The translations under genes and the position numbers were made by a program. Of a DNA stretch of 43,338 bases, positions 17,513 through 28,000 are shown in pieces. Position 1 is the first letter of the stretch; each line of letters opens with the position of its first letter. The notes below the pieces were generated by a model. That model saw nothing but the letters and a program-made list of their open reading frames with translations. It was not told the DNA's origin and did no database searches. The stretch is from Planctomycetota bacterium (GTDB lineage Bacteria; Planctomycetota; Phycisphaerae; Sedimentisphaerales; Anaerobacaceae), in NCBI GenBank assembly GCA_014384025.1, contig JACNGQ010000318.1, positions 1 through 43,338 of the forward strand, written 5' to 3'.

Positions 17513-18328
17513 ATGACGAATATCAATCAACAAACTCAGTATAACTCTATGCTTGCACGCTATCCTAGACCGGCAATTGCGCTAACAGCTGTCACCTACC
17601 TTCTGCTGGGTTATTTGGAGGCTCTACCGGGAACTATTATTCCGTCTTTGTTTTACTTCTTTGCACTGGCTATACTGGCTCTGTATCTTATGCCTCGCGT
17701 TCTGGGGCTGCCTAATGGCCGCAAGTCGCTTCGAGACTACTGCCGGGACATTCGCCTGTTGCCGGTGAGGCCTCTGGGGCGGAACGTATTCATTGGCTTG
17801 TTGATGGCCGCACTTACATTGTCCGGTATTCTGTTGGCATCGCTGCTGACAAGGCACTTTATACTTGACTGGAGTACCGTACATGCATCACGGTTGATAA
17901 AAGGTCTCACACGTGGTATCTGGGAGGAGGTTTTTTTTCGCGGCATCATCTTGGTGTTATTTATGAGAGTATTTTCAAAGCGCAAAGCGATATTCTTTTC
18001 GTCCTTTTTGTTTGCAATGGCTCACCTGAGGTCAATAGCTTTAACTCTGGAAATGATAGTCGATTTGGTCAGTATTTTCTTTATGGGATTGCTTTTCATC
18101 TATATTGTACTCAAAACGGGTTCTCTTCTCCCGGCGATTGTCTTTCACTATATACACGACATTTTTGTGCTGTTTGTTCAAAATACACCGGGGGCAGATA
18201 AAGTGCTCGCCACAACATTCTTGTATTCGTTTCTTTGGATTGCTCTTGTTGTCGGGGCGGTACTCACGAAATATATTGTTGAACGCGGGTCCATGAAGGA
18301 GTCGAAAATATTAATATCTCAGACGTAG
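17513..18328 (+). CDS. CPBP-family intramembrane metalloprotease
   Basis: A 271-residue inner-membrane protein of the CPBP/CAAX-protease (ABI) family. The EExxxR motif is Glu138, Glu139 and Arg143 in GIWEEVFFRGI. The second motif is His171 in FAMAHL and the third is FHYIHD with His212 and Asp216. About seven membrane helices are predicted. Bacterial members process prenylated or bacteriocin-like peptides or regulate membrane-protein quality; the role here is unknown. The gene sits between the complete truA and a relic of a second truA end, so it is probably a cargo gene that interrupted a truA-glycosyltransferase operon. The 108-base gap before it is unusually long for this operon. Confidence 0.87.
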   Translation: MTNINQQTQYNSMLARYPRPAIALTAVTYLLLGYLEALPGTIIPSLFYFFALAILALYLMPRVLGLPNGRKSLRDYCRDIRLLPVRPLGRNVFIGLLMAALTLSGILLASLLTRHFILDWSTVHASRLIKGLTRGIWEEVFFRGIILVLFMRVFSKRKAIFFSSFLFAMAHLRSIALTLEMIVDLVSIFFMGLLFIYIVLKTGSLLPAIVFHYIHDIFVLFVQNTPGADKVLATTFLYSFLWIALVVGAVLTKYIVERGSMKESKILISQT

Positions 18329-19587: not shown

Positions 19588-19947
19588 ATGAACGAGACAA
19601 TTAGTTATTGCGGTCTGAATTGCCAAGGCTGCCCGATCTATCTGGCAGCGAGGGAAAAGGACGAAGAGAAACAATATAAAATGAGAGTTGAAATTGCTCA
19701 ACAAATCAAAGAGCTTTACGGCCAGGAATTAAAGCCGGAGGATATCACCGACTGCGATGGCTGTAAGGCAGACAGCGGAATACTATTCTCAGGAAGCCAC
19801 AACTGCTATATGAGAAAGTGTGCAGGTCAAAAGCGTATCGAAAATTGTGCATATTGCCAGGATTATCCCTGCCAGGAGCTCGAGAAGCTGTTTACCACTG
19901 ACCCGGATGCCAGGAAACGATTAGATACCATAAAAACCAGGCTTTAG
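19588..19947 (+). CDS. DUF3795 Cys-rich protein
   Basis: A 119-residue DUF3795 protein (PF12675). The first cluster is YCGLNCQGCPIY near residue 8, the second CDGCKA, then CYMRKC and a final CAYCQDYPCQELEKL. The cysteines in this family are thought to bind metal; no enzyme activity is known to me. It lies 24 bases after the glycosyltransferase stop and has GAGAG upstream, so it may be the last gene of the asd operon. Length fits the family. Confidence 0.85.
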   Translation: MNETISYCGLNCQGCPIYLAAREKDEEKQYKMRVEIAQQIKELYGQELKPEDITDCDGCKADSGILFSGSHNCYMRKCAGQKRIENCAYCQDYPCQELEKLFTTDPDARKRLDTIKTRL

Positions 19948-20109
19948 CTCTATTTAGACTCAAAAAAAGAAAATTTGTTAAAATATTTCAACTTTTTTCA
20001 CGAATACAGTATTGCCCATAAACACTTATTATATAAGCTCTTGTGGCGCAGAAAAGCCACGAAGAATCTGACATTTCTTAAAATAATCAAAAGATTGATG
20101 AAACAAAAC

Positions 20110-20155
20110 TTGATATCCAGGCGTCTATATTATAGATTAGTTTGTGTTACAAACT
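20110..20155 (+). promoter_or_regulatory. Promoter with a 17-bp palindromic operator
   Basis: A -35-like TTGATA at 20110-20115 and a -10-like TAGATT at 20133-20138 are separated by 17 bases. Immediately after them is a perfect inverted repeat AGTTTGT-GTT-ACAAACT at 20139-20155, covering the expected transcription start. The first gene begins at 20196. A palindrome at this place is where a repressor such as the winged-helix protein at 21992 would bind. The binding is inferred, not shown. Confidence 0.55.
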
Positions 20156-20195
20156 GATATGCACGACAAATTAGCTCTTATTAGGATTATTAATT

Positions 20196-20804
20196 ATGGA
20201 ATCAAAAATCAATTTGAAAGAAATCGAACAGAAGACCTTCAGAGAAAGCAATCAGGACGGACTTCTGGAGCTTGTGATGGGCATATGTATGGCCGCTATA
20301 TCCACACGTCTTATTTCGCGAGTTCTGGTCGTTATGCTGGTTCTTCCTGTGATTCTCTTCGGTCCGGTACTTGTTACCTTGAGGAAGCGATATACATATC
20401 CGCGGATAGGCTATGTTAAACTCATTCCCGATAAGCCGAAAGAAGTTATTGGAGCCATTTTTCTCATAACTCTTATCGTGGTTGTAATTATAGCCGTCAT
20501 CTTTGTCCTTTTCGGGGATGTGCGAGATTTCAACCTCTGGATGAAATGGATTCCAGTCTGGGGGGGAGTTGTGCTGGCGGGCATGTTTAGTTCATTCGGC
20601 TCCAAATCCTGTTGCATACGATATTATATTTTTGCCATATGGTCATTAATTAGCGGGCTTGTTCTGTCGGTCCTCCGCTTCGAAACTGTTGAAACCGGCA
20701 CATTGCTGTACTTTCTTGCTATGGGTGCCCTGCTGATTCCATGGGGACTGGTCACATTCATCCGTTTCCTGCGAAAATACTCCAGGCTTTCAGAGGAGGT
20801 ATAA
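20196..20804 (+). CDS. Multi-TM membrane protein, first of three tandem paralogues
   Basis: A 202-residue inner-membrane protein with about six helices. Its layout is shared with the next two proteins: an amphipathic N-terminus ending SNQDGLLELVMG, two helices, a short basic loop with RYTYPRIGYVK, four helices and a C-terminal FIRFLRKYSR. I do not recognise the family. This copy is the most divergent of the three. An AGGA lies ahead of the ATG, and the promoter-operator at 20110-20155 is 41 bases upstream. The next gene begins two bases after the stop. It is probably part of a membrane complex with its neighbours; no activity can be given. Confidence 0.75.
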   Translation: MESKINLKEIEQKTFRESNQDGLLELVMGICMAAISTRLISRVLVVMLVLPVILFGPVLVTLRKRYTYPRIGYVKLIPDKPKEVIGAIFLITLIVVVIIAVIFVLFGDVRDFNLWMKWIPVWGGVVLAGMFSSFGSKSCCIRYYIFAIWSLISGLVLSVLRFETVETGTLLYFLAMGALLIPWGLVTFIRFLRKYSRLSEEV

Positions 20805-20805
20805 A

Positions 20806-21414
20806 ATGGTCTTTTCAATCGACATCAGAAGAATTAAACAAGATTCGTATCGCATCATTCGACAGGACGGGCTGTCCGATATCTGTGCCGGACTTATGCT
20901 CGGAATAATGGCAGTGTTTTTCCTTGATTTCAAATATGCAGGTGCATTGATTGTCGGCTGTGCAATGCAGACAATCATCCTGCCTGTCTGCAGAAAAAAA
21001 TTTACTTATCCGCGCATCGGCTACGCTAAGTTTCCCGGGCGAGCAGACATTAAAAGCCTGATAGTTTGGGATATTGCATTACCACTTATTATAGTCGCAT
21101 TGATTATATGTGTTGGTATATGGGTATGGTTCTTACTGCCTCTTTGTCTGGGTATATTTCTGGGCGGGCTTGCTTTAGTCGGCGCTCGTATTACCGGATA
21201 CGTTCTCGATTACATACTTGCTGCAGTGCTTCTGGCAAGCGGTCTTATCGGTTTACTACTCATACAGCTCGGCTATGCCCCGGGAGTCGCTACGGCATAT
21301 CAGCTATGGGGTTTGTCCGGTATTTTTATCCCGGTGGGATTGGTTCAGTTAATCCGTTTCCTGCAGAAATACCCCCAACCTGAAATGGAGGTATCCAATG
21401 ACGATGAAAATTGA
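20806..21414 (+). CDS. Multi-TM membrane protein, second of three tandem paralogues
   Basis: A 202-residue inner-membrane protein of the same family as its neighbours. It has an N-terminal RIIRQDGLSDICAGLMLG, a GIMAVFFLDF helix, the loop RKKFTYPRIGYAKF, four further helices and a C-terminal IRFLQKYPQPEME. It is closest to the third copy: GIMAVFFLDF and GIMAIFFLDF align without gaps. GGAGG lies ahead of the ATG at 20806. Its final 17 bases overlap the start of the third gene, which argues for coupled translation and a fixed ratio of subunits. No catalytic motif is visible. Confidence 0.77.
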   Translation: MVFSIDIRRIKQDSYRIIRQDGLSDICAGLMLGIMAVFFLDFKYAGALIVGCAMQTIILPVCRKKFTYPRIGYAKFPGRADIKSLIVWDIALPLIIVALIICVGIWVWFLLPLCLGIFLGGLALVGARITGYVLDYILAAVLLASGLIGLLLIQLGYAPGVATAYQLWGLSGIFIPVGLVQLIRFLQKYPQPEMEVSNDDEN

Positions 21415-21982
21415 TCTGCAAGATATCGAAATAAAAACCCGCATGGCCCTTCATCAAGATGGATTGGATGAAATTTTGGTTGGGCTTTCGCTGGGTATCA
21501 TGGCAATCTTCTTTCTTGATTTCAGACTTTCGATAGCGATGATCGCCGGCTGTGCGATACAGATTCTCTTGAAACCGGCCTGCCGCAGGCGAATAACATA
21601 TCCGCGAGTGGGGTACGCAAAGCTGGCAGAATCAAAGGATAAAGTTACAAGTCGAAAAATATTCGTCCTTGCCATAGTGCTTATTTTAATCGGTGCTGGC
21701 TTATTTTTTGTTTCGCAGCTTCGATGGTTGCTGCCGCCCTACCTTGGGATAGTGCTGGCCGGTATAACCTTAGCCCAGGTTTGGCGGGCCGCACACACTT
21801 ACGATTATTTTATTATCAGTTTGTTTTTGGCCAGTGGTTTAGCGGGGCTTCTGCTAATATCGCTTGATTACGAACCCAGGATAGCTACCGCTATACAAGG
21901 CTGGGCCCTAGCCGGGCTTTTAATACCTATTGGCATAATCAGGCTTAATCTTTTCCTGCGCAAATATCCTAAGCCAGCATAG
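21398..21982 (+). CDS. Multi-TM membrane protein, third of three tandem paralogues
   Basis: A 194-residue inner-membrane protein with the same order of parts as the two before it: HQDGLDEILVGLSLG, GIMAIFFLDF, the loop RRRITYPRVGYAKL, four helices, and LFLRKYPKPA at the end. It starts inside the second gene (ATG at 21398 with GGAGG upstream in that gene) and is followed nine bases later by the winged-helix regulator. The conserved QDGL, TYPR(I/V)GY and RKYP segments across the three are probably functional sites on the cytoplasmic face. Confidence 0.77.
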   Translation: MTMKIDLQDIEIKTRMALHQDGLDEILVGLSLGIMAIFFLDFRLSIAMIAGCAIQILLKPACRRRITYPRVGYAKLAESKDKVTSRKIFVLAIVLILIGAGLFFVSQLRWLLPPYLGIVLAGITLAQVWRAAHTYDYFIISLFLASGLAGLLLISLDYEPRIATAIQGWALAGLLIPIGIIRLNLFLRKYPKPA

Positions 21983-21991
21983 GAGTTAATA

Positions 21992-22321
21992 GTGACAAAG
22001 AATGAAATAGATAAAGAAAACCTCCAGCCGCTGGCAGAAATCGACAGGGTAATTCATGAGCCGGCCAGGCTGTTAATCCTGGCGTATCTGTCCGTGGTTG
22101 AAAGTGCGGATTTTCTCTTTCTGATGAACCAGACTCACCTTACACGGGGAAACCTTTCTGCGCATTTGAGTAAGCTGGAAGCCACCGGTTACGTGGAGAT
22201 TAAAAAGGAGTTTGTGGAAAAGATACCCCGGACGCTTCTGAGCCTTACTGAAGAAGGCAGGAAGGCATTTCAGGAATACAGACGCAGCATGAGGCAGGTT
22301 CTCGATAGTCTGGCTGAATGA
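21992..22321 (+). CDS. Winged-helix transcriptional regulator (PF13601-type)
   Basis: A 109-residue DNA-binding protein of the HTH_34/ArsR-like winged-helix group. The core IDRVIHEPARLLILAYLS, the recognition helix TRGNLSAHLSKLEATGYV and the wing EFVEKIPRTLLSLTEEG are complete. There are no metal-binding cysteines, so it is unlikely to be a metal sensor. It starts with a GTG at 21992 with AGGAG upstream and closes the three-gene membrane operon. In this family such regulators often control the operon that encodes them; the palindrome at 20139-20155 is the obvious candidate site. The signal might come from the membrane proteins. Confidence 0.85.
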   Translation: MTKNEIDKENLQPLAEIDRVIHEPARLLILAYLSVVESADFLFLMNQTHLTRGNLSAHLSKLEATGYVEIKKEFVEKIPRTLLSLTEEGRKAFQEYRRSMRQVLDSLAE

Positions 22322-22550
22322 TGGGAGAGAAAATTATGACTCGTATAGGAAAAAAATAGTGTTTATCTCGGCAAAGGTCTTTTGTTGATTACGTCAGGCC
22401 CCGGCTCACCCGCACTTCCTTTGAAATTTTCAAATCTGAAAACTGGTTAATATTACCTGCTCATCATGAACCTGCCTCCTATAGCTTAGCGGCTTGCTTT
22501 ATATCGTTAATGAATCTATAATTGCCGCATCTATACAGGAGATTCTTATT

Positions 22551-22967
22551 ATGAAGACATTGACAAAAGAAATCTGGATGGACATACCGCAGCGGCGAGC
22601 GATTGTATCTATCCATAATGAAGTAGAACGGCTTGTAGATAAAAGCGGCGTTCAGGATGGCCTTGTACTTATTAACGCAATGCACATAACAGCATCTGTA
22701 TTTATCAACGACAACGAATCGGGTCTTCATCACGATTACGAGCTCTGGCTTGAAAAACTCGCTCCGGAAAAACCACACAGCCAATACCAACATAATGGGT
22801 ATGAGGACAACGCAGATGCTCATCTGAAACGGCAAATAATGGGACGTGAGGTCGTGGTCGCAATTACGGAAGGAAAGCTTCATCTCGGGCCGTGGGAGCA
22901 CATCTTCTACTTCGAGTTTGACGGCAAACGCAAAAAACGTCTGTTAGTAAAAATCTTCGGCGAATAA
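22551..22967 (+). CDS. YjbQ/UPF0047 family protein
   Basis: A 138-residue UPF0047 (PF01894) protein; E. coli YjbQ of this family has weak thiamine phosphate synthase activity. The family signature is complete: [23 protein letters not shown], then [13 protein letters not shown] and the C-terminal [18 protein letters not shown]. The ATG at 22551 with AGGAG ahead is preferred to an upstream ATG at 22494. It is a soluble protein, apparently first in a small unit with the LysE gene, which begins ten or so bases after the stop. Confidence 0.9.
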
Positions 22968-22976
22968 ATTGGTGAC

Positions 22977-23603
22977 CTGCTGGAACTGATACTTTTTTTA
23001 ATTGAGGTTGTTGTAATATCGCTATCCGGCGTAATGGCGCCGGGTCCGGTGACGGCCGCGGCGATTGGGATGGGGACACGTTCGCGCTACGCCGGTATGC
23101 TTTTAGCCATTGGGCACGGCATCGTCGAATTTCCGCTGATGGTGCTGATTGTGTTGGGTTTGGGCAGAATATTAAAACTGCCCATCGCACAAATTATCAT
23201 CGGTTTGGCCGGCGGAGCGTTTTTGCTGATAATGGCAATTCAAATGCTCAAGAGTCTGCGAGTAACAGAAGAACAGCAAACCAAAACCACCAAAAGCACA
23301 CCGGTGTTTACAGGGATAATACTGTCGGCAAGTAATCCGTATTTTCTTGTCTGGTGGGCGACCGTCGGATTAACTCTTGCAACCACTGCTACCGGAATTG
23401 GGATATCGGCCTTTGTGATATTCGCAATCGTTCATTGGCTGTGCGACCTTATCTGGCTCAGTGCTTTGTCGTGGGCGAGTTTCAAGGGCTCGGTATTGCT
23501 TGGCCCGCAAGGAATGCGAATAGTGCTTATGATTTGTGCGATAGCTCTATTTTTCTTCGGCCTGTTCTTTATTTACAATGCCATCATGATTTTGTTTAAG
23601 TAA
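22977..23603 (+). CDS. LysE-family exporter, probable CTG start
   Basis: An inner-membrane exporter of the LysE/RhtB superfamily, about 208 residues and six helices. The family N-terminus VVVISLSGVMAPGPVTAAAIG is obvious, but the only ATG in frame (23034) lies inside it and would remove most of helix 1. Between the upstream stop at 22965-22967 and 23034 there is no ATG, GTG or TTG in frame; CTG codons occur at 22977, 22980 and 22986, and GGTGA at 22971 could serve as a ribosome-binding site for the last. I therefore give a CTG start, exact codon uncertain. The 3' end overlaps the convergent YihY gene by 57 bases. Substrate unknown. Confidence 0.8.
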   Translation: MLELILFLIEVVVISLSGVMAPGPVTAAAIGMGTRSRYAGMLLAIGHGIVEFPLMVLIVLGLGRILKLPIAQIIIGLAGGAFLLIMAIQMLKSLRVTEEQQTKTTKSTPVFTGIILSASNPYFLVWWATVGLTLATTATGIGISAFVIFAIVHWLCDLIWLSALSWASFKGSVLLGPQGMRIVLMICAIALFFFGLFFIYNAIMILFK

Positions 23604-24938
23604 TTTTTCACTATCTCGTGTGACATCGAGTATTTGTTTCAGGCTGTACTGAGCCAGGATGTTTCGCTGTGATTGATTTATCTGCTCAAGAGCCTGCGAC
23701 TGATCGGGTGTTGACTGTGCAAAGCCCGCTACAGATACGGCCTCGGCAATATCGGACAACCTGATATTTGCCGGGTCTTTTACAGGCAGAAAACCCACTT
23801 TAGGCTCGGAGGTTTTGGCTATCAATCCTCTCCTGACGAGATGGTCGAGAATCTTGTCTCCGAACTCAGGAGGGATATCTAATTTACTGCATATAACCTC
23901 CGGCGAAACCGGTGCCCGATTCTTCACAAAGGCAAGGGCTATCTCTCTGACGATGTTTATGGCGGTAATGTCGTTTGCTATGAAATATTCTTCGTTTTCC
24001 TTGGCGGCGGCAATCTCAGCAGCGTCGAGACTGCTAAGATGCTGAGTAGTAAACGTCAACTGCAGGCCGAACAGCACCGTCAGCCAGGTAATATAAATCC
24101 AGAACACCGTCATCGGAACCAGGGCCATTACACCATATACCGTGGTGTACAGCTTTAATTCCGTGATACCGTACCCGAAGGCACTTTTGGCGGCTATCCA
24201 GACCAAAGCGCCTACCGCTGCACCCCAAATGGCGGCTTTTGTCTTAACCTTTGTATTCGGCAAAACAAAATAGAGCAAAAAGAAGGCAACGGCGGCTACG
24301 ATATAAGACAAGAGGATTGGCGCGATATCTGCAAGAAAAGTTTTCTGAAACCACGCAATAGTAGTATATGGATTGGCTATATATATGCCGGCCCCAAGAA
24401 GCAAAGGCCCAAGAGTCAGCAGCGCCCAGTAGCTGAAAATTCGATGCAGAAAATTTCTGCCCCTCGGAACGTGCCAGATACTATTAAATGCTTTTTCTAT
24501 TGTCGCCAACAGAGATAAAGCCGCCCAAACAACAATTACCACGCTAAACAGGGTGATAGAGCCTTTGTTTACACCGGAAAAAAACTCACTGACTATGTCA
24601 TTGAGATATTCCGTGATCTTTATTATCTCTTCCGGCTTCTCTTTATCAGGTGTTATTTCGATAGTTGACAGGTTAAGCTGCTCATAAACAAGACTCTTCA
24701 AATTTTCACCAACATTACTATAAGCCGGGAATGACTGGAATATCAAAAGAGTTACGATAGCCAGGGGCACAATCCCGAAAACCGTATGATACGACAGGGC
24801 GGCCGCCTGGCGGCCTGCATGGTTTTTCTCCAGCAGTCTGATACAATGAGACCACAGTTTAATCTGAAAGACCGCAAACCACCCGGCTTTGCCAAGCTGA
24901 GTCGTCGGCGTTGATAAAAGCTTTGTAAGCGATAACAT
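23547..24938 (-). CDS. YihY/BrkB (UPF0761) family membrane protein with C-terminal winged-helix-like region
   Basis: A 463-residue protein of the YihY/virulence factor BrkB family (PF03631). The hallmark RQAAALSYHTVFGIVPLAI is at residues 43-61, and about six helices extend to near residue 300, ending WIYITWLTVLFGLQLTF. The remaining 150 residues look like a soluble winged-helix module (VREIALAFVKNRAPVSPE, KLDIPPEFGDKILDHLVRRGLI), as seen in some family members. The family was once mis-named ribonuclease BN; its real function is unsettled. Its last 57 bases overlap the end of the LysE gene on the other strand. Confidence 0.88.
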   Translation of the reverse strand: MLSLTKLLSTPTTQLGKAGWFAVFQIKLWSHCIRLLEKNHAGRQAAALSYHTVFGIVPLAIVTLLIFQSFPAYSNVGENLKSLVYEQLNLSTIEITPDKEKPEEIIKITEYLNDIVSEFFSGVNKGSITLFSVVIVVWAALSLLATIEKAFNSIWHVPRGRNFLHRIFSYWALLTLGPLLLGAGIYIANPYTTIAWFQKTFLADIAPILLSYIVAAVAFFLLYFVLPNTKVKTKAAIWGAAVGALVWIAAKSAFGYGITELKLYTTVYGVMALVPMTVFWIYITWLTVLFGLQLTFTTQHLSSLDAAEIAAAKENEEYFIANDITAINIVREIALAFVKNRAPVSPEVICSKLDIPPEFGDKILDHLVRRGLIAKTSEPKVGFLPVKDPANIRLSDIAEAVSVAGFAQSTPDQSQALEQINQSQRNILAQYSLKQILDVTRDSEKLLKQNHDGIVNKEQAEEK

Positions 24939-25061
24939 CTCTATACCCTTTCAATTCAAGCTTATATCGGCAAATTCAGGTGGGAACCTGCGGGAAAACA
25001 ACAGGCTAAATAAAGAATATTGGCCACAATGGAATTGATAAGATTTACAGGTCTATCTATG

Positions 25062-28000
25062 CTATTTCAATAATTGTTCAAGAAGATTTGGCAATTGCTC
25101 CTCCAGTTGCTGCAGTAACTGGCCCTCAAGGAGTTTACCAATATCAAGTTCGGGCATATCGACAGTACCCCTGAGTGATACCTTAATCCTTTTGCTGGTT
25201 GTTTCCTGACCGACTCGTACTGTTCTGCCATCTGCGGTGTAAGGTAAAGTTACGGTCATATCCAGGCTCTTATCCAGACCGATAACACCTTTGAAATTGA
25301 CGGGATTGTCACCGATATCCATCTGCATATCATCATATCTGAGAAATCCATCCCGCAAAACGAACTTCGTAGGATGGATAGTAATAACCGCACCGCGGGC
25401 ACTGGTACCGCCCGCTGAAAAAATCGTGCTGAGTAAACCTGAGGCCTGCAAGCGCACCTGGTCCATTGAAACCGTACCAACAACTTCAGCTTGATTTTGG
25501 GCGGCAGCATCAAGCGGAATAGTGAGCTGCTCACAGCTAAAAGAAGCAATGCCGCTGGCGTTGACGGCGTCTGCGAAAATTGGATTGAGGTACATCAGAA
25601 GCTTTTTGGTCGTCTGGTCATTGATTTTGATATTCTTCATTAGCTGGAGAGGTTCGGCCATTTTCAATTGAGCTGGTTTTTGGTTGAAATCCACCTGGCC
25701 GACAAAATTAAATAGGCCTTTGTTGACAGTAGTCTCAAACGGTACAATTTTGAGCAGGCCGTTACGGATTTGAATATCTACGTCGGTCGGGCCAAAATCC
25801 AATCCCATATAGCCAGCCTGTTCAAATCCCAGTTTGGCATCGGCGGTAAGATTAGACATGAGTTTGTCCGACTCCCCGGAAGGATATTCACTGAGGAAAT
25901 TAATAGAGTCTTTTCTCTGACCCTTAAGAGTCAGACCTTCCGGAAGAAATGGAGCAGCGAAAGTACTGACCGCCAACCAGTCATACTCCAACTCCGCTTG
26001 TCCGGTTAATTTAGTCTTGCCAGAATTATTAAGCTTGTTAAATTCGCCTTTGCGAATTTTTATTTGCGGGCTGTCCAGTTGTAATTTTTTAATATTAACA
26101 GTTTTTTCTTCGGGATTTATCTCAGCATCAAAAACAAGCAATACTTCATTCGGCTCAAAAGGCTCCTCGCCGGGATAAGTGAGTTTTAGAGCTTTAATTT
26201 TTGTCGAGTCGGTTTTTACTTTGTAGATGTTTTTATCCGAGCTTATGGAGATTGTTGATTCGGCGATACCTGCAAGCTGGGTTTCTTTAGGTAAAGAAGC
26301 AAATAAAACAGCAAATGGCTTCACTTTTTCAAGGTCAATATTCTTGGCGACAATATCCATGCTTACAGGTACTTGCGTATTTCCACCTATTGGAAGAACG
26401 GCCTGGTTTATATTGATTTGGCCCAGGCTCGCATTGGCTTCAATAGAATTAAAGGTCAGTACGTTAGTTTTTCTGTCCACAGCAAAAGCAAACTTAATAT
26501 CTGCCCCCGGCTCTTGCGCAGAGATACCATCTGAAATTATGCGAAGGTTTTTAACCTGCGATGCACCTCTGCCCGTAATCTCGCTTTTATTAACCGACAA
26601 AGTACCCTGCTCAACAATCTCGCCGGCTATCTCGTATTTACCTAAATCCACGAACTGTCCGAATTCCGATTGCAGTTTTTTCAGGTCAACATAACCATCA
26701 TATTTAAGTTGTTCAAGAAGCCCGCCGGCATTAATTCTCGCAAACGAAGCTGTTACATTAAGCTCATCAAAACGTATTTTTTTCTTATCCGTTGAAATCT
26801 GAAGCTTGCCTGTAACCGGTTGGGAAAGAGCAAGCTTTTTGTCTTCGAAGGTGCCTGTCAATTCGTCGAGATTTACCTCGCCATTAAGCTTGCCGCGATT
26901 TGCCGTAATATTTCCACTCAATTTACCTGAGGTGACCTTCATTTTCTCTTTGATGCCGAATGTTTGCGGCATTTGAGAAAGAACTGCGGCAGCATCAAGC
27001 TCGAAATCGGCATTCAAGCTCACATCCGACTCGGATGTTAAAAAGTCTGACCATGAACTAAATGTAGTGGGAACCATTCCGCCGATTTGCCCCACAAGCC
27101 AGTCACTGTCGAACTGAAATTGTTCGATGTTTATCAATTTCTGTTGGCTTGTAAGCTTCACAGCTACATTCAACAGGCTCGTTTTCAGATTGTCGCCATT
27201 TAGCGCCGATCCGGTTATATCCAGATTCTTTGCTTTGATTGAGCCGTTCAAATTCTCGAAGTTGCCATCTTTAATTACGGCATTTAAATCAGCAGAAACC
27301 AGTCCTTTGGCTTGAACATCTATTTTAGCCAATTCCAGAATCGAACCCAAAGATTCGAGATCCAGGTCATTAACTTCTACAATCAAATCGCCGGTAGTAC
27401 CTTTGAGAGACCAGCCTCTTATCGCCTTATCACGTTTAATTTTGCCCTCCGCGTGAATCTGTGCTTTCTCAGCCTTACTGTTAACCACAGCCAGATTGAT
27501 ATCAAAATCTGTACGCCTGCCCGGCGGCCGCAGACTCAGTTTTGAGTTTATCTCCGAGAGTTCAACGGTTTTTGCCTTCGAATCTGTCAATTTAAAATTG
27601 CCGTCGTTAACGACTACATCCATAACAAGGGCAAGATATCCGGCTTTGGTGGGAATCGGCTCGGACACACTCACAGATTCCTGCCTGCTCTCAGGTTGAT
27701 TATTGAGATTTACGCTTATCTTAGGCTGGTCAATTGTCGTCTGTCCGAATGACAGGTTGCCTGTTAAAATTGAACCATAGCGGGGCTTCGTGGTGATTTG
27801 CCTAACCTGGACGGAAATCGTGTCTGCATTATCGGCGAAACTAAGCCCTGCAATACTTATTCCTTTGAACCAGCCCATTGAAAGATCGGCGAAATCTATT
27901 TGGCCGTCAATTGAATTGTTGATTTTACCTGATACGAAACGATTGCCCTTATTGGATGAAATGAATGCAGGTACAAAAAAGAATACCAGCACAATCACAA

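Follow-up and report, generated by a model that had tools for sequence, protein, structure and literature searches.

The DNA analysed here, referred to as the window, is a stretch of 43,338 nucleotides (contig JACNGQ010000318.1, positions 1–43,338 of the forward strand, assembly GCA_014384025.1) from a member of the Planctomycetota. It contains a set of four genes on the same strand that encode three small paralogous membrane proteins, here called M1, M2 and M3, and a winged-helix regulator, here called R (Table 1). The initial annotation had described this locus as three tandem paralogous membrane genes followed by a winged-helix regulator, a description that holds for all four open reading frames, and the paralogy is far above chance (Smith-Waterman z-scores of 21.5, 31 and 56 against shuffled sequences). 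The proposed motifs QDGL and TYPR(I/V)GY and a C-terminal FL-x-KY segment were recovered in the alignment of the three proteins, which are 27–43% identical in pairwise comparisons. The 17-base overlap between M2 and M3 was correctly read, whereas the gap between M1 and M2 is 1 base rather than the 2 bases reported, and position 20110, which had been taken as the start of the operon, belongs to the -35 region of a probable promoter.

There are no further copies of M in the 6.7-Mb genome. All M and R genes tested evolve under purifying selection, with pN/pS values of 0.14–0.29 against the relatives L004 and L006, the L006-based ratios being rough since dS is saturated in that comparison. Upstream of the operon, with two unrelated genes in between, lies a gene for a CAAX-like (Rce1/CPBP) protease of the PF02517 family (17513–18328, plus strand). 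Its proximity is probably a coincidence, although PF02517 genes are also found inside the M-R operons of an Asgard clade that we refer to as Lokiarchaeum-like, a name that is our own guess.

Table 1. Features of the M-R operon and its upstream region in the window.
Feature	Position	Strand	Basis and remarks
Probable sigma-70-type promoter: TTGATA 20110–20115; -10-like TATAGA 20131–20136 or TAGATT 20133–20138	20110–20138	+	Sequence reading
Putative operator AGTTTG-TGTTA-CAAACT	20139–20155 (palindrome core 20140–20154)		Overlaps the -10 box or lies just downstream of it
M1, six-TM membrane protein, 202 aa	20196–20804	+	ORF; of the kind seen in single-M operons
M2, six-TM paralogue of M1, 202 aa	20806–21414	+	ORF, clear Shine-Dalgarno
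M3, six-TM paralogue, 194 aa	21398–21982	+	ORF, clear Shine-Dalgarno
R, PF13601 winged-helix regulator, 109 aa, GTG start	21992–22321	+	ORF, clear Shine-Dalgarno
Segment with M2 and M3, 1186 bases, missing in the close relative L004	20811–21996		Colinearity

The membrane protein family and its regulator

Searches with the window proteins and 33 aligned relatives yielded only scattered, weak matches in Pfam, NCBIfam, PHROGs and PADLOC, none of them consistent or convincing. The best Pfam match for the M proteins of this operon was DUF2244, with 16.5 bits against a cut-off of 27, and natural sequences in the PDB gave no match. A named family for M was rejected on the basis of these four profile libraries and the PDB sequences, and so was a role as an anti-phage defence system, as no PADLOC model matched M. 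No paper on M was found among the open papers searched, and M is thus an unnamed membrane-protein family without a curated entry, in agreement with the initial annotation, to which no named system of this make-up was known. It had also allowed for the alternative that M belongs to a characterised transporter or protease family; the profile searches identified none.

The AlphaFold2 model of M1, based on 33 sequences, is confident (pLDDT 87, pTM 0.81) and consists of one N-terminal amphipathic helix and six transmembrane helices, the latter in the number first noted for all three proteins. A Foldseek search with this model gave nothing significant (best E-value 0.79), and a second structure aligner retrieved SatP (Z 6.6) and UreI (Z 5.9) at an rmsd of 7.3, with scores in the background range of helical bundles. 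The conserved residues are mainly found in the N-terminal segment, in loop 2 and at the C-terminus, and include the invariant or nearly invariant D21 and G22, T67, P69, R70, G72 and Y73, G184 and F191. Since loop 2 is strongly positive (mean net charge +4.2), we infer from the positive-inside rule that the conserved parts (QDGL, RxRxTYPRIGY and FLRKYP) face the cytosol. The M proteins would then be inner-membrane proteins with their most conserved motifs exposed on the cytosolic side.

The assignment of R to PF13601 (HTH_34) was confirmed by a profile match of 95.2 bits against a gathering cut-off of 27 (E = 2.7e-27), and a relative is present in the PDB (1ub9, PH1061; E = 4.5e-8). The recognition helix of R is LTRGNLSAHLSKLE. 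Comparison with PADLOC revealed weak winged-helix similarity to Csa3/LmuC only, and the open papers searched on PF13601, HTH_34 and PH1061 contained no mention of PF13601 and no role for PH1061. R-type regulators in the Cloacimonadota (above 123 bits) always adjoin M where the contig reaches far enough, and PF13601 proteins with lower scores are located next to other genes. In the genome studied here, a second PF13601 regulator is encoded directly downstream of a 187-aa membrane protein without matches (L147, 4290–5158, minus strand; G000 contig C278), and similar pairs, unrelated to M, were observed in the Cloacimonadota (L173, L179 and L180). These pairs resemble the M-R arrangement in that a membrane protein of about 190–200 aa lies directly upstream of the regulator, but the membrane partner belongs to another family that is not caught by the M profile, which suggests a wider habit of pairing small membrane proteins with PF13601 regulators.

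A putative palindromic operator and its recognition code

The spacing of the promoter elements in front of M1 is only roughly canonical, and the same layout is seen in the relative L004. The putative operator is a palindrome in the core promoter with the pattern (C/G)TTTG-N5-CAAA(G/C), in which the outer bases are paired. It was found in perfect form in 41 of 84 homologous upstream regions, against none in base-composition shuffles, and in near-perfect form (score of at least 9.5) in 52 of the 84, where 0.25 would be expected from such shuffles.

The outer base pair varies in step with the third position of the LTxGNLS motif in the recognition helix of R, without exception. Arginine or lysine at this position goes with G..C (20/20), and tryptophan, phenylalanine or aspartate with C..G (31/31). 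Eleven more C..G cases with aspartate, asparagine or tryptophan from the Lokiarchaeum-like operons bring the latter class to 42/42, so that residue and base agree in all 62 cases, which are related sequences rather than 62 independent events and among which the cross-domain cases weigh most. The code does not simply reflect a split between bacteria and archaea, as judged from the sequences of two Planctomycetota loci (L044 and L046) and one from the Acidimicrobiia (L083), which combine tryptophan with C..G, and from a 3.9-kb contig labelled Bathyarchaeota (L007), which combines arginine with G..C. The M, R and operator of this contig are all of the bacterial type, and it may have been mis-binned or have received the module by transfer.

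In bacteria the operator lies in or directly after the promoter, and in archaea its right half extends into a TATA box that resembles TTTAAATA or TTTATATA, positions that both fit repression. Given the perfect covariation of the outer base with the recognition-helix residue and the location of the site in the core promoter, R almost certainly binds the palindrome and is predicted to repress its own operon. The operator in the window is the sole exact copy in the 6.7-Mb genome, and matches with one mismatch are no more common there than those of a reversed control pattern. A wider regulon in this genome was therefore rejected, which leaves R with its own operon as predicted regulon.

Distribution, paralogue number and the Asgard operons

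A profile search identified relatives of M in 22 public contigs, of which one (L025) has a short match only, from the Planctomycetota, Sumerlaeota, Cloacimonadota, WOR-3, Acidimicrobiia, Sabulitectum, Bathy-, Thor- and Hodarchaeota, a Thermoplasmatales archaeon and the Methanofastidiosia. Genome surveys recovered M in 77/227 genomes of the Asgard phylum, 17/125 of the Cloacimonadota, 10/392 of the Planctomycetota (four through weak matches), 7/250 of the Bathyarchaeal phylum and 5/346 of the Actinomycetota, where the matches are mostly weak. The combination of M and R is common in Asgard archaea and sporadic in the Planctomycetota, Cloacimonadota, WOR-3, Acidimicrobiia, Bathyarchaeia and Methanofastidiosia. 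None of the relatives was found in viral contigs or plasmids, and the idea that the genes are cargo of mobile elements or viruses was rejected for this reason.

Of the 93 loci that extend far enough, 92 have R directly 3' of M and in the same orientation (88/88 in the main set and 4/4 further loci from the Bathyarchaeal phylum, L187–L190, with L174 as the exception), across two domains of life. Together with the conserved operator and its matching code, this strongly supports the link to the regulator for which the initial annotation had suggested a neighbourhood check, and the comparison shows that M and R form one conserved module. The same annotation had named genes that mostly occur singly and without the regulator as evidence against a system: a single M is indeed what most loci contain, but the regulator is there.

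A single M is thus the commonest state, and tandem sets of two to four also occur. The view of three paralogues as a system can be kept insofar as such sets are recurrent, but not as the defining state. At least three M matches were obtained in 23 of the 77 positive Asgard genomes, and the loci that were fetched from these contain tandem triplets followed by R. In the phylogenetic tree, M has expanded separately in the Planctomycetota, in WOR-3, in the Thorarchaeota, in the Lokiarchaeum-like clade, which has three positional orthologues, and in another Asgard group; the position at which L098 joins was flagged as a long branch and was not relied on. Two M domains are fused in one open reading frame in L085 and L098 from the Cloacimonadota, and these fusions, together with the repeated tandem expansions, favor the formation of M-M complexes. 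A locus from this phylum (L156, 4000–6371, plus strand) has an M-M fusion, R and a second long M-like open reading frame, which places R between two fused copies. In a WOR-3 locus, a gene for an erythromycin-esterase-like protein (PF05139, E = 2.6e-54) is placed between the second and the third M (L022, 3640–4998, plus strand). A comparable amplification of small membrane proteins is seen in another planctomycete, in which five to six genes for SdpI-domain proteins lie in tandem (L210, G086 contig C46).

M1 of the window is most similar to the single-copy proteins of L004 (84% identity), L028 and L005, and the orthologues of M2 and M3 in L006 are 70% and 66% identical, respectively. L004 is colinear with the window over positions 19905–25865, with 84% identity up to the end of M1 and 92.6% from R onward, and has a join between the M1 stop and the R start in place of the 1186-base segment. 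From this change in identity, the join appears to be a recombination or replacement boundary within the operon. As L004 misses exactly M2 and M3, the number of paralogues changes through clean gains or losses within the operon.

In Asgard loci, the module is found beside genes for an ABC ATPase and a permease of about 550–575 aa, in co-directional, divergent and downstream layouts. The ATPase was confirmed by Pfam, and the permease had a weak ABC-2 match in one case and was unmatched in the others. The Lokiarchaeum-like operon starts further upstream with genes for small transmembrane proteins, to which several genomes add a PF02517 CAAX-like protease. In these loci the operator is absent before the first M and present where the longer operon begins, a region examined after the site had proved missing in front of M, where it is perfect in 11/15. 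This position ties R to the control of the exporter. Four Asgard loci (L201–L204) have three operator sites about 50 bases apart at the operon head, which are weaker in L202–L204. The bacterial, Bathyarchaeal and Methanofastidiosal loci examined had no recognisable ABC genes next to the module. This speaks against the very improbable reading that M is an accessory membrane part of an ABC-2 transporter and that bacterial stand-alone copies pair with transporters encoded elsewhere, despite the ABC ATPase and permease that lie beside M-R in several Asgard layouts and have the operator in common with it.

Proposed function and relation to known systems

Taken together, the M-R module is a genuine cross-domain membrane module for which the sequences provide a well-supported regulatory circuit, and protection of the membrane against a toxic compound is its most likely role. 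The hypothesis that we favor, with a probability of roughly 45%, is that M-R is an autorepressed immunity or efflux device that resembles SdpI-SdpR in its working but is unrelated to it in sequence. According to this hypothesis, R would repress its own operon by occupying the -10 region of bacterial promoters or the BRE/TATA region of archaeal ones, and the M proteins would assemble as oligomers. The arrival of a membrane-active toxic compound, for example a peptide, would lift the repression, either through retention of R at the membrane by loaded M or through direct binding of the compound to R, and the M proteins then made would provide immunity or efflux. In the Lokiarchaeum-like Asgards, the same switch would also control the ABC-2 exporter and the CAAX-like protease. 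These Asgard partners are typical of peptide-immunity loci and support the immunity reading, whereas the bacterial copies, including that in the window, stand alone without ABC or protease genes, which counts against it. Further points against it are that no toxin gene lies next to the module, that M shows neither similarity to SdpI nor a significant fold match, and that the relative L004 manages with M1 alone.

A mixed M1-M2-M3 complex in the source organism is plausible from the sequences and would be specific to its lineage, and R may respond to the state of a membrane complex, as was first suggested for this locus. A more elaborate version, which we regard as tentative and rather unlikely, is that M1-M2-M3 form a hetero-oligomeric receptor that sequesters R when the compound is encountered, with the number of paralogues tuning specificity and with the Asgards controlling an ABC/protease resistance operon in this way.

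The commonest layout for small winged-helix regulators beside membrane genes is that of a ligand-sensing repressor. Accordingly, R could be a MarR/PadR-like repressor with a small molecule as its direct ligand, and M a small homo- or hetero-oligomeric channel or exporter for that molecule, without crosstalk between R and M. We consider this explanation possible but doubtful. The operator at the promoter and the co-regulated ABC-2 exporter in Asgards are in line with it, and M resembles the oligomeric channels SatP and UreI in size (six helices, about 200 aa), albeit with a weak fold match. However, M matches no transporter family, no conserved charged residue in a transmembrane helix marks a transport path, and the most conserved residues are predicted to be cytosolic. 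The conserved cytosolic face and the constancy of R as partner would also suit a sensor of membrane state (fluidity, potential or lipid damage) with no protective role of its own, which holds or releases R to tune its own expression and, in Asgards, that of the ABC and protease genes. This we find improbable, as the sole predicted target in the genome of the window is the operon itself, and a sensor without an output would be odd.

What is new here is the palindromic operator with a residue-base code for R, next to the unnamed family M. The results describe this family and a compact regulatory module common to bacteria and Asgard archaea, whose predicted operator and recognition code of one residue and one base are immediately testable. 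Few pairs of regulator and operator are known from the Asgard archaea, for which the module offers an entry point to the study of gene control and of defence at the membrane, and more generally to the question of why cells retain several diverged copies of small membrane proteins under one switch.

Compared with known systems, R is a PF13601 member by profile and a relative of PH1061, but differs from the family in general in belonging to a separate subfamily that is linked to M and to a defined operator. The Asgard operon resembles ABC-2 exporter and PF02517 immunity loci in having an ABC ATPase, an ABC-2-like permease, a PF02517 protease and small transmembrane proteins, but no precursor peptide or modification enzyme was identified, and around the module in the window the ABC and protease partner genes are absent.

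The closest parallel in working is SdpI-SdpR (sdpRI) of Bacillus subtilis, likewise a polytopic membrane protein and a small winged-helix regulator in one operon (PMC1626106, PMC6818787), in which the immunity protein sequesters its autorepressor on meeting the toxin (PMC1626106). The mechanism in which loaded M would hold R at the membrane follows this logic, and the immunity or sensor role considered for M is modelled on it. Homology of M to SdpI was rejected, since the SdpI domain (PF13630) had no match in 33 M members at E ≤ 0.1 and a profile-profile comparison of M with six SdpI-domain proteins (hhalign) gave a probability of 0.3%. We therefore classify the module as SdpI-SdpR-like in working and not as a member of that system. 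It further differs in gene order (M-R rather than R-I), in a regulator that belongs to PF13601, in that no toxin gene lies beside it, in the frequent tandem sets of M, and in a distribution mainly in Asgard archaea, Cloacimonadota and Planctomycetota.
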